Position numbers and translations under genes: made by a program. The notes beneath the pieces are model-generated. The model worked only from the letters and a program-made list of their open reading frames with translations. It had not been told where the DNA came from and did not search any database. This document shows positions 30,413 to 36,894 of a DNA stretch of 36,987 nucleotides, piece by piece; within the stretch, counting starts at the first letter, position 1, and every line of letters begins with the position of its first letter. The DNA is from Oscillospiraceae bacterium (lineage in GTDB: Bacteria; Bacillota; Clostridia; Oscillospirales; Acutalibacteraceae): the NCBI GenBank assembly GCA_029227055.1, contig JAQXZE010000066.1:1-36987 (forward strand), in the 5' to 3' direction.

Positions 30413-30673
30413 AAAAACGCCCTGAACACAAAAATTATGTGTTCAGGGCGGAGTTATATCCGTGTTACCACCTGAATTCGAAATTATAAAATTTCGCACT
30501 CATAGGCATCGAAAAATGCCTTGTTCTATAACGGGAACAACCGGTTTCCCTTTCGGGAACAGCTCAAAGCCAGCTTCGCCGAGTAAATTTGAAAGGCTTG
30601 CACCAACCGCCTTTTCTCTAAAACCCTTAAACTCGGTTACTTAGTGCTTATCATAGCTTTTGGTTATTAATTT
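30413..30673 (-). ncRNA. T-box leader upstream of the Lrp-aminotransferase operon
   Basis: On the minus strand the leader shows, in order: the kink-turn pair ATGAT/TTGAGC, the specifier-loop strand AGTAA, the apical GGTTGGTGCAAGCC (plus 30595-30608), the opposite specifier strand with GAA-GCT-G (GCT at plus 30572-30574), the T-box AGGTGGTAACACGG (plus 30460-30473) and a terminator stem GCCCTGAACACA/TGTGTTCAGGGC (plus 30419-30449) followed by T. TTCAGG/CCTGAA can form the competing antiterminator. Uncharged tRNA would prevent termination. GCT suggests tRNA-Ala, but the specifier reading was made by eye and is less certain than the T-box itself. Confidence 0.93.
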
Positions 30674-35374: not shown

Positions 35375-35402
35375 GGCGTTGTACCCGTAAGGATACAACG
35401 CC
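35375..35402 (+). terminator. Probable terminator hairpin after the SPFH gene
   Basis: GGCGTTGTA and TACAACGCC form a 9-bp stem 20 nt after the stop codon. The following sequence AGTTTTATT has only a short T run, so termination efficiency is uncertain; it may also be the first hairpin of the array that follows. Confidence 0.55.
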
Positions 35403-35404
35403 AG

Positions 35405-35569
35405 TTTTATTCGCCTTGCGGCGAGTTCTATTGCTACGCAGTGATATTTGGACAAGAGTCCAAGTGATATTGCCTTCGGCAGTTATTGGCGAATAAAATA
35501 TCACTGAAACCGCAAGGTTTCAATAACACTATTGCTGTAAGGCAATAATAACACTCCGACAAAGTCGGA
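35405..35569. repeat. Array of short hairpins with a conserved 9-nt spacer
   Basis: Noncoding. Consecutive hairpins: TCGCC/GGCGA (35411-35424), TTGGAC/GTCCAA (35448-35463), TGCC/GGCA (35471-35481), TGAAACC/GGTTTCA (35505-35522), TATTGC/GCAATA (35530-35547) and TCCGAC/GTCGGA (35555-35569). Stem sequences differ, but hairpins are separated by AGTGATATT (35440-35448, 35463-35471) in the left half and by its complement AATATCACT (35497-35505) or the variant AATAACACT (35522-35530, 35546-35554) in the right half. An 11-bp inverted pair TTTTATTCGCC (35405-35415)/GGCGAATAAAA (35488-35498) also spans the left half. It ends 7 bp before the next promoter. Confidence 0.7.
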
Positions 35570-35576
35570 ATATAAC

Positions 35577-35605
35577 TTGAAAGCCTATCAGTTTTTATGT
35601 ATAAT
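35577..35605 (+). promoter_or_regulatory. Promoter for the four-helix-bundle/channel pair
   Basis: TTGAAA (35577-35582) and TATAAT (35600-35605) have a 17-bp spacer. The predicted start near 35612 leaves a leader of only about 13 nt before GTG 35625. Confidence 0.75.
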
Positions 35606-35624: not shown

Positions 35625-35975
35625 GTGGCTGATAGTATTTTAAGAGATAAAGCAAAAGAGTTTGCAAAGAAAATCGTTTTTCTTTGCCGCGATATGAAAA
35701 CAAACCACAAAGAATCCGTTTTAATAAATCAGTTGCTCCGCTCAGCGACCTCTATTGGAGCAAACCTACACGAAGCCCAATATGCTCAAGGAACAAAAGA
35801 TTTTATTTCAAAACTTGAGATTGCTCAAAAAGAGTGCTATGAAACGGAATATTGGCTAGAACTTCTTTTTGAGACAGGTTGTATGACCGAGGAAGTTTAT
35901 AAGGAAGCTCAAAATGAATGTGGCGCGATCCGCAGAATGTTGATTTCTTCACTTAAAACGATAAAATCAAAATAA
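35625..35975 (+). CDS. Four-helix-bundle protein (S23/23S rRNA intervening-sequence family)
   Basis: The 116-residue helical protein matches PF05635/TIGR02436. The family core LINQLLRSATSIGANLHEAQ is near residues 33-52, followed by DFISKLEIAQKECYETEYWL near residues 59-78. Relatives were first found inside 23S rRNA intervening sequences; the DGR accessory protein Avd has the same fold. The biochemical role of stand-alone members is unknown; a basic surface and nucleic-acid binding are known only for Avd-type relatives. The start GTG 35625 follows AGAGGTG; an in-frame TTG at 35577 is the -35 box and is not transcribed. Gln codons are mostly CAA here, unlike most neighbouring genes. The channel gene follows after 13 nt. 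Confidence 0.9.
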   Translation: MADSILRDKAKEFAKKIVFLCRDMKTNHKESVLINQLLRSATSIGANLHEAQYAQGTKDFISKLEIAQKECYETEYWLELLFETGCMTEEVYKEAQNECGAIRRMLISSLKTIKSK

Positions 35976-35988
35976 AAAGGTATGAATT

Positions 35989-36699
35989 ATGAGAAAGAAA
36001 TTATTTTCGATAATTGAGTCGGCAGAAAACGATAGTAAGTTAAGCAATGTTTATGATTTTATAATGATGGTAACTATTGTTGTAAGTGTTGTTCCACTTG
36101 CCTTTAAGGAAACAAATACTATTTTTCAGTGGATTGATTACATAACTGTAACCATTTTTATTTTAGATTATTTTTTGCGTTTAATAACCGCCGACTATAA
36201 ACTAAAAAAATCAGTGGTTTCCTTCTTTGTATATCCAATTACACCAATGGCGGTTATTGATTTAATTTCAATATTACCATCTATAACCATTTTGAACAGT
36301 AGTTTTAGATTGTTAAAGCTATTTAGATTGTTGCGAACATTAAAAGTGTTACGTGCTTTTAAATTTTTGAGATATTCGAAAAGTTTTGATATCATAACAA
36401 ATGTATTCAGAAAGCAAAAAAAGGTTTTGTCTGCAGTTGCAACGATGGCAGTTGCTTACATCTTAATTTCTGCGCTTGTAATATATAATGTTGAACCCGA
36501 TTCATTTGAAACGTTTTTTGATGCAATTTATTGGGCAACCATCTCCCTAACAACTGTTGGTTATGGTGATATTTATCCAATAACAACAATTGGCAGAATT
36601 GTCACAATGTTTTCTTCGGCTTTTGGTATTGCGATAATTGCACTACCATCCGGCGTTATTACAGCCGGTTATCTTGAAAAAATCAGCAAAGACAAATAA
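35989..36699 (+). CDS. Voltage-gated-type potassium channel
   Basis: The 236-residue protein has six membrane helices. The S4-like segment is unusually complete for a bacterial channel: FRLLKLFRLLRTLKVLRAFK near residue 106 carries Arg or Lys about every third position. The pore helix and selectivity filter TTVGYGD (filter TVGYGD at residues 189-194) specify potassium. S6 (IVTMFSSAFGIAIIALPSGV) contains the gating Gly and a Pro. The N-terminus is short and there is no C-terminal RCK or cyclic-nucleotide domain. It follows the four-helix-bundle gene by 13 nt with an AAAAAGG ribosome site and probably shares its promoter. Base use is more AT-rich than in the housekeeping genes nearby. Confidence 0.93.
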   Translation: MRKKLFSIIESAENDSKLSNVYDFIMMVTIVVSVVPLAFKETNTIFQWIDYITVTIFILDYFLRLITADYKLKKSVVSFFVYPITPMAVIDLISILPSITILNSSFRLLKLFRLLRTLKVLRAFKFLRYSKSFDIITNVFRKQKKVLSAVATMAVAYILISALVIYNVEPDSFETFFDAIYWATISLTTVGYGDIYPITTIGRIVTMFSSAFGIAIIALPSGVITAGYLEKISKDK

Positions 36700-36731: not shown

Positions 36732-36894
36732 TAACAAGTGACATTTGGGCGCCTAAATGTCCTGCTTGTTACGGTATAAGACAGAATCATAACTACCGGC
36801 CGTGCCGGTAGTATGCACTGCCCCCTTAGGGCATAAGACCGGCCGAGCCTATAGGCTCGTCGAAAAGTTTGCCAACCGCAACTCTTTCACCGGC
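36732..36894 (+). other. Hairpin-rich noncoding region after the channel gene
   Basis: Several hairpins follow one another: TAACAAG/CTTGTTA enclosing GACATTT/AAATGTC (36732-36771), CTACCGGC/GCCGGTAG with a 3-nt loop (36793-36811), TATGC/GCATA (36812-36835) and CGAGCC/GGCTCG (36844-36859). The 8-mer ACCGGCCG occurs twice (36795 and 36838). No convincing ORF or promoter is seen, but the block ends in a strong plus-strand terminator, so it may be a structured RNA or the 3' end of the channel transcript. I could not match it to tmRNA, RNase P RNA, SRP RNA or 6S RNA by their conserved motifs. Confidence 0.5.

Follow-up and report, generated by a model that had tools for sequence, protein, structure and literature searches.

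Near the right-hand end of the window, by which we mean the whole 36,987-nucleotide stretch of Oscillospiraceae DNA analysed here, a run of short hairpins lies upstream of a gene for a four-helix-bundle (FHB) protein. The locus raises the question of what the hairpins are, and of what they have to do with the gene beside them. The answer that we favor, with moderate confidence, is a small mobile DNA element: the array would form its upstream end, a PF05635 gene, here together with an ion-channel gene, would travel in it, and the FHB protein would recognise the 7-nt words, or heptads, which separate the hairpins.

Layout of the element in the window

The hairpin-heptad element occupies positions 35403-35577 (~175 nt; + strand, as are all features below unless stated otherwise). 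It was matched with 173.6 bits by R1, which was built from 23 elements, three of them FHB-linked, and which has the window copy among its builders. The element runs in the order H1 to H4 with GT-heptads, a central turn, and H5 to H7 with inverted heptads. The initial annotation had described six hairpins with unrelated stems; hairpins there are, but they number seven, plus a leading hairpin, H0. H1 (CGCC-TTGC-GGCG) is at 35412-35423, H2 (GC-TAC-GC) at 35433-35439, H3, the stem of which differs between copies, at 35449-35462, and H4 (GCC-TTC-GGC) at 35472-35480, and H5 (35505-35522), H6 (35530-35547) and H7 (35556-35568) follow the turn. H0 is a perfect hairpin, GGCGTTGTACCCGTAAGGATACAACGCC, at 35375-35402, and the same or a similar hairpin stands ahead of arrays at unrelated loci.

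The left heptads, spanning 35404-35470, are GTTTTAT (35404-35410), GTTCTAT (35425-35431) and two copies of GTGATAT (35441-35447 and 35464-35470). The right heptads, spanning 35498-35576, have the inverted sense (- strand) and read, in + strand letters, ATATCAC (35498-35504), ATAACAC (35523-35529 and again 35548-35554) and ATATAAC (35570-35576). Written in full, the left spacers are AGTGATATT, exact at 35440 and 35463, AGTTTTATT and AGTTCTATT, and the right spacers are AATATCACT, AATAACACT (twice) and AATATAACT. The fixed 9-nt spacer of the initial annotation stands as a recurring spacer, but the exact 9-nt word occurs only twice, and it is the unpaired part that is 7 nt in every spacer, the outer T and A closing the neighbouring hairpins. 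A second, 11-nt complement of longer range pairs the left spacer and H1 5' arm (TTTTATTCGCC, 35405-35415) with the central turn (GGCGAATAAAA, 35488-35498). Its left arm competes with H1, and the two structures are mutually exclusive. Across the 23 aligned elements this complement was 95.3% paired, with changes on both sides in 1 of 11 pairs, that pair in 9 of the 23 elements.

The FHB gene lies at 35625-35975, with a GTG start picked by alignment with its relatives, and its protein scored 96.9 bits against PF05635 (23S_rRNA_IVP; curated cut-off 33.8) and 107.9 bits against TIGR02436 (curated cut-off 24). Between array and gene, at 35577-35605, is a promoter-like TTGAAA-17 nt-TATAAT that agrees with the sigma-70 consensus at 11 of 12 positions, by consensus match only; its first base is the array's last base, and it points into the FHB gene. 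Because of where this site lies, the gene probably does not have the array as its leader, and we have dropped the earlier suggestion that the protein is expressed through the array. An ion-channel gene (PF00520/PF07885) follows at 35989-36699, a gene common to an array and FHB subfamily that comprises the window and three other loci (L204-L206). At these loci array, FHB gene and channel gene are arranged as in the window, and the longer module closes with a conserved 3' noncoding end, ...CTTGTTACGGTATAAGAC (36734-36782), similarity fading after GGTATAAGAC. The window copy is intergenic, downstream of an SPFH gene, and is not inserted in rRNA. Beside these features, window positions 36734-36860 hold the repeat ending GGTATAAGAC, common to L204-L206, and then other palindromes, which recur inverted ahead of an array in L032; in L019 a similar GGTATAAGAC stretch adjoins the array. 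Elsewhere in the window, a T-box leader was matched with 118 bits at 30441-30663 (- strand).

Recurrence and stem pairing

Counting the window copy, the source genome contains three arrays built in this order. Among 150 genomes of the family, the pattern AGTGATATTN{6,24}GTGATATT was found in 26, and the reversed control pattern in 2. Twenty-three elements were aligned; two more, one with an insertion in H6 and one that has lost H3, were set aside. In the alignment 96.2% of stem cells were paired, against a shuffled mean of 76.0%, and 30 of 37 stem pairs had changes on both sides, against a shuffled mean of 17.5; both values lay beyond all 500 shuffles, which ignore the relatedness of the elements. 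The unpaired spacer was 7 nt in 138 of 138 instances (six hairpin-to-hairpin or end spacers in each of the 23 elements). The array is therefore more than a chance arrangement. Pairing between left and right spacers was rejected as a general rule, the left word being GTTATAT or GTGATAT while the right is mostly ATATCAC.

Association of arrays with PF05635 genes

When the 80 closest FHB relatives were fetched by protein alone, from metagenome-assembled genomes titled Clostridia bacterium, Oscillospiraceae, Ruminococcus and similar, 77 proved to have R1 upstream of the gene in the same orientation. As three builders of R1 are FHB-linked, its training set may overlap with these 77 by a few loci. 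The R1 match ended 54 nt or less from the protein match in 74 of the 77, one of them overlapping, and 90-140 nt from it in the other three. A detector blind to the spacer sequence (score of at least 3) was applied to PF05635 genes of the 150 same-family genomes. The sample, taken among the matches listed with the weakest rows left out, was 133 loci, 125 of them with at least 250 nt upstream. Arrays were called upstream of 48 of the 125 genes, compared with 0/375 shuffles, 3/127 downstream regions and 1/116 regions 400-800 nt upstream, by a detector that needs exact 6-mers and gives the window itself a score of only 1. The spacer words detected include TGATAT, TGAAAT, TGATGT, TGAAGT and CGATAT. 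The association is a strong one.

A tree was made of 131 of the 133 FHB proteins; it has few columns, and many of its forks are uncertain. A gene was labelled as array-linked if its detector score was at least 3 or if it had at least five cores in the inverted arrangement; labels for six rows of the window type were assigned by hand. Fifty-seven of the 60 labelled genes fell in one 70-row clade (SH-aLRT 91). Moreover, the spacer word tracks the FHB subclades, with 13 changes for the 60 labelled rows; the count rose to 21 when the unlabelled group was included, while shuffling gave 57.7 on average and reached so low a count in 0 of 200 trials. This agreement of word and clade fits the earlier proposal that the protein recognises the array, though joint travel of array and gene would also produce it.

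At the level of whole genomes, the FHB gene was the best companion of the arrays among the 150. A PF05635 gene was found in 23 of the 26 array genomes and in 47 of the 124 others (p 2e-6, relatedness ignored); none was found in the remaining three array genomes, which are 79%, 79% and 91% complete. The initial annotation's impression that similar arrays stand beside FHB genes in other gut Clostridia is borne out, well beyond chance: the spacer recurs and is FHB-associated, yet most arrays have no such gene beside them.

Orphan arrays, module ends and mobility

At least 106 R1 matches of 100 bits or more were present in the 26 array genomes, and among the matches listed at least five of these 106 strong arrays lie beside a PF05635 gene; as R1 scored at most 150 candidates per genome, the array counts are lower bounds. 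Most arrays are thus orphans, the majority of copies standing alone as MITEs or REPs do. R1 also gave weaker matches immediately ahead of other PF05635 genes with different spacer words (for example G003:C11, G052:C2, G072:C49, G117:C24, G118:C36 and G107:C31). In one genome, G133, ten orphan copies resemble each other closely; nine places can be told apart, and two of the copies have common flanks. The dispersed arrays of this genome (L292-L301) are bounded by AT-rich palindromes, AATTATAATT.

The ends of the module were read from pairs of more than 80% identity among the 80 FHB loci. On the left, 336 of 471 similarity ends fell at -260 to -220 of the protein match, i.e., at the array start or H0. 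On the right, similarity stopped at the FHB stop codon about half the time (249 of 532 ends in the bins 0 and +5, counted from the end of the protein match); the other ends lay elsewhere, 81 of them clustered at +55 to +65. Fifteen locus pairs, 12 of them with a module identity of 90.0-97.9%, were chosen by hand for a comparison of flanks: 11 of 12 testable left flanks and 11 of 12 testable right flanks were without detectable protein homology, with two exceptions: the left flanks of L219/L222 match at 31%, and L207/L210 have a right flank in common. Closely similar modules with unrelated flanks argue that the module is mobile, and it does recur as a discrete unit in different genomes and at loci unrelated to each other. 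Tandem copies also occur; in L260 two arrays follow one another, each led by the same H0, and the first of them lacks the gene. L204 and L205 are 99.5% similar over a stretch that starts at the array and takes in the right flank as far as +891; their left flanks part exactly at the array's first base, H0 being absent in L204. In 29 congeneric SPFH loci, searched up to 330 nt after the gene, the array and FHB module was present in none; L203 has a separate array after SPFH, in the other orientation. In L193 and L197, from two congeneric genomes, heptad-like repeats come directly after the SPFH terminator T-tract, with no FHB gene in 330 nt. For the hairpin type no clean empty site was found, the genus of G107 being represented by one genome.

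A mobile array with many orphan copies could also be a REP- or MITE-like repeat moved in trans by a Y1 transposase (RAYT/IS200), the FHB gene being a passenger. Dispersed palindromic repeats with one protein-linked copy do resemble REP/RAYT systems, and a Y1 transposase gene (PF01797) is enriched in the array genomes (18/26 versus 53/124, p 0.017, relatedness ignored). We nevertheless consider this explanation unlikely, though it is the best of the alternatives. The FHB gene is linked more tightly and its clade predicts the spacer; the gene beside the window array is PF05635 rather than a linked Y1; and 8 of the 26 array genomes gave no Y1 match, G003 and G004 among them, which as 97% complete drafts do not make the absence firm.

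Heptads at other PF05635 loci

Tandem repeats of period 7 are frequent beside PF05635 genes for which no hairpin array was called. We assembled 109 such loci: 65 from the same family, 30 from other families of the phylum (from a search of 299 genomes, 57 with a match) and 14 plasmid loci hand-picked from 25 matches in Cyanobacteria, Bacteroidota, Spirochaetota, Chloroflexota and Bacillota. The 65 family loci include degenerate arrays of the hairpin clade that the detector missed, six of which were seen by eye (L059, L071, L090, L099, L117 and L149). With runs of N removed (as in L328), the period-7 threshold was reached upstream in 54 of the 109 loci, downstream in 40 and on either side in 67, in five phyla; 42 loci were below it on both sides. 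At periods 5, 6, 8, 9, 10 and 12 no locus passed, and period 11 passed in two upstream regions and one downstream. Control genes, taken from hairpin-class genomes, passed at period 7 in 1/203 upstream and 1/224 downstream regions. L326 and L329 have 11-nt rather than 7-nt tandem repeats upstream of the PF05635 gene. The words are often inverted across the gene: inverted 11-mers were found in 43 of the 109 loci, whereas mispaired flanks gave a mean of 0.75 and a maximum of 3, and in 20 loci direct words were common to the flanks, besides or instead of inverted ones.

Sites with and without the element are seen in Cyanobacteria. In Nostoc sp. C052 exact inverted heptad arrays of 36 nt flank an FHB gene. 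Four further Nostoc plasmids, two of them from C052, have the same site with 198 bp instead of the 432-bp stretch. A helicase-methylase operon has the element in Dolichospermum and is without it in Calothrix and Nostoc. The loop of an RNase P RNA helix is interrupted at L330:1229-2003 by a PF05635 element that has inverted heptads, placed between positions 136 and 137 of the RF00010 model. Five PF05635 loci are inside 23S rRNA, with 7-nt repeats readable before the gene, two of the five (L076 and L333) exceeding the heptad threshold. Some plasmid FHB genes are amid or beside defence genes, in the arrangements cas2-FHB-cas1, FHB-cas1, drmD-FHB-MmeI and HsdS-FHB-HsdR (L344, L346, L339 and L342, respectively).

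These loci bear on a second alternative, that the FHB gene is selfish or defensive cargo and the repeats are only recombining terminators or insulators. H0 is variously a terminator-like hairpin with a T-tract right after a tRNA gene, or a recurring hairpin that moves along with the element; a few loci lack it. The upstream gene ends toward the array in 46 of 59 assigned loci (18 of the 77 being unassigned). Both the terminator-like leading hairpins and the gene orientation speak for this alternative. It leaves unexplained the exact heptads, their inversion between the halves and their presence in other phyla, and we find it improbable.

RNA or DNA

The left half of the array weakly matches an RNA family. 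Rfam RF01706, Gut-1 RNA, which Rfam types as sRNA, was matched at 35402-35475 with 44.9 bits (E 1.5e-6), below the gathering score of 50, and the other two arrays of the source genome scored 52.2 and 50.8 bits. In 14 of 20 hand-chosen FHB-linked loci a Gut-1 match reached the gathering score, 12 of these matches lying beside the FHB gene and two (L132 and L144) elsewhere in the locus. The array might then be a structured RNA, either an independent sRNA or a cis-regulator, that is near the gene by accident, and the covariation of the stems agrees with such a role.

The kind of change seen in the stems points the other way. Among non-Watson-Crick cells of the array stems, 7 of 37 were G-T, or 5 of 23 once the poorly aligned innermost pairs were dropped, a share near the 1 in 6 expected from random mismatches, while 38 of 41 such cells were G-T in the acceptor stems of 105 tRNAs from the collected loci. 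Relative to standard pairs, G-T came to 0.9% (7/760) in the arrays and 5.2% (38/732) in the tRNA acceptor stems. This low share favors constraint or copying at the level of DNA, with two reservations: some of the mismatches in the arrays may come from misalignment, and hairpins replaced recently as whole units would give the same picture. Judged from the sequences, the stem changes look DNA-like rather than RNA-like. In addition, the FHB-linked loci have Gut-1 matches in both halves of one element, facing each other, the likely promoter is downstream of the array, and the modules are mobile. A structured RNA thus seems to us quite improbable, a shade more so than terminators with cargo.

Two further alternatives fare worse. 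Movement by reverse transcription, with the FHB protein as an Avd-like partner of a reverse transcriptase, is suggested by the similar four-helix bundle of Avd. RVT_1 was present in 8/26 array genomes and 39/124 others (p 1.0) and was not found in the 97% complete draft of the source genome; we rejected this route, for which there is very little chance. A CRISPR-like memory with the stems as acquired sequences, suggested by conserved spacers between changing stems, was ruled out as next to impossible, as the palindromic stems keep a fixed order and several (such as GTGAGAC..GTCTCAC) are common to different genera; no Cas gene was present among the five window proteins scanned. An anti-phage annotation was rejected, PADLOC giving no match.

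A model for the element

We return to the reading that the array and the PF05635 gene form one mobile DNA element. In this reading the FHB protein would bind heptads as units, each subunit of a ring perhaps taking one. Among solved relatives of the protein, five chains are listed for 2rld (E 4.7e-29) and, as a weak match, for 2gsc (E 0.69), which makes a ring holding several heptads plausible. The hairpins would act as DNA, keeping the heptads apart and letting the single-stranded region fold, and would be looped out of the complex of ring and heptads. The FHB protein may hold the element in a nucleoprotein complex during copying, and host replication or repair, or some nuclease, would copy it elsewhere, frequently to a place directly 3' of a gene or terminator, or into the end of an RNA hairpin. 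The module itself encodes no recognisable nuclease. For orphan arrays the model assumes movement in trans.

More broadly, PF05635 is a widespread family for which we know of no function. We raise tentatively, as a possibility that we do not hold to be the probable outcome, that its proteins are the mobilising factors of an unnamed class of transposable elements in several phyla. The termini of such elements would be inverted arrays of 7-nt words, one word per subunit, and in one Clostridial clade a DNA hairpin would stand between the words. The intervening sequences of 23S rRNA and RNase P RNA, part of the known heptanucleotide repeats, and Gut-1 would be forms or remnants of these elements. 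If PF05635 members do recognise heptads, then the rRNA intervening sequences, the intergenic heptanucleotide repeats and Gut-1 join up, Gut-1 would be a family that Rfam lists as RNA although it may be something else, and the element would be mobile without any recognised transposase.

Comparison with known systems

The Gut-1 motif, the PF05635 family and bacterial heptanucleotide repeats (PMC4679880, PMC4692102) are already known; what is new, as far as literature searches reach, is that motif, family and heptads are joined in one mobile element. The published repeats are 7-nt intergenic tandem repeats of bacteria, described in the text of PMC4679880 for TAACTGA and of PMC4692102 for GGGAATC/GGGGAYT, and occur, by the same texts, in Cyanobacteria and Bacteroidetes among others. 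The terms 'four helix' and 'S23' have zero occurrences in the main texts of both papers, and in the accessible portion of PMC5524665 FHB genes appear only in a table. The titles and opening lines of abstracts of the mostly open-access literature on Gut-1, on FHB proteins with repeats and on Avd contain no link between PF05635 and repeats.

The left half of the array has the same H1-spacer-H2-spacer-H3 plan as Gut-1 RNA, but the Gut-1 model spans half the element and is without the inverted right half, the FHB gene and the mobility. The 23S rRNA intervening sequences with a PF05635 ORF have the same protein family as the window module; they lie in rRNA, whereas the window module is intergenic and its heptads are separated by hairpins. 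Avd, the accessory protein of diversity-generating retroelements, is a four-helix bundle that forms a pentamer, and it is like the FHB protein in fold; unlike it, the arrays have no association with a reverse transcriptase, and Avd was absent among the PDB hits obtained by sequence for the FHB protein. The array differs from CRISPR in that its variable parts are palindromes of fixed order, some of them common to different genera.

REP/BIME sequences with RAYT are dispersed palindromic repeats with one protein-linked copy, the clade of the protein tracking the type of repeat. The module has all three features: dispersed palindromic repeats, a protein-linked copy and a correspondence of clade and repeat. 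It differs in that the partner is a four-helix bundle and not a Y1 nuclease, and in that its units are heptads between hairpins. Because the defining marks of a REP/RAYT (a linked Y1 gene, looked for beside the window array), a CRISPR or a reverse-transcriptase element were not found, our best reading is of a new class of element, one that in outline would work much as REP/RAYT does.
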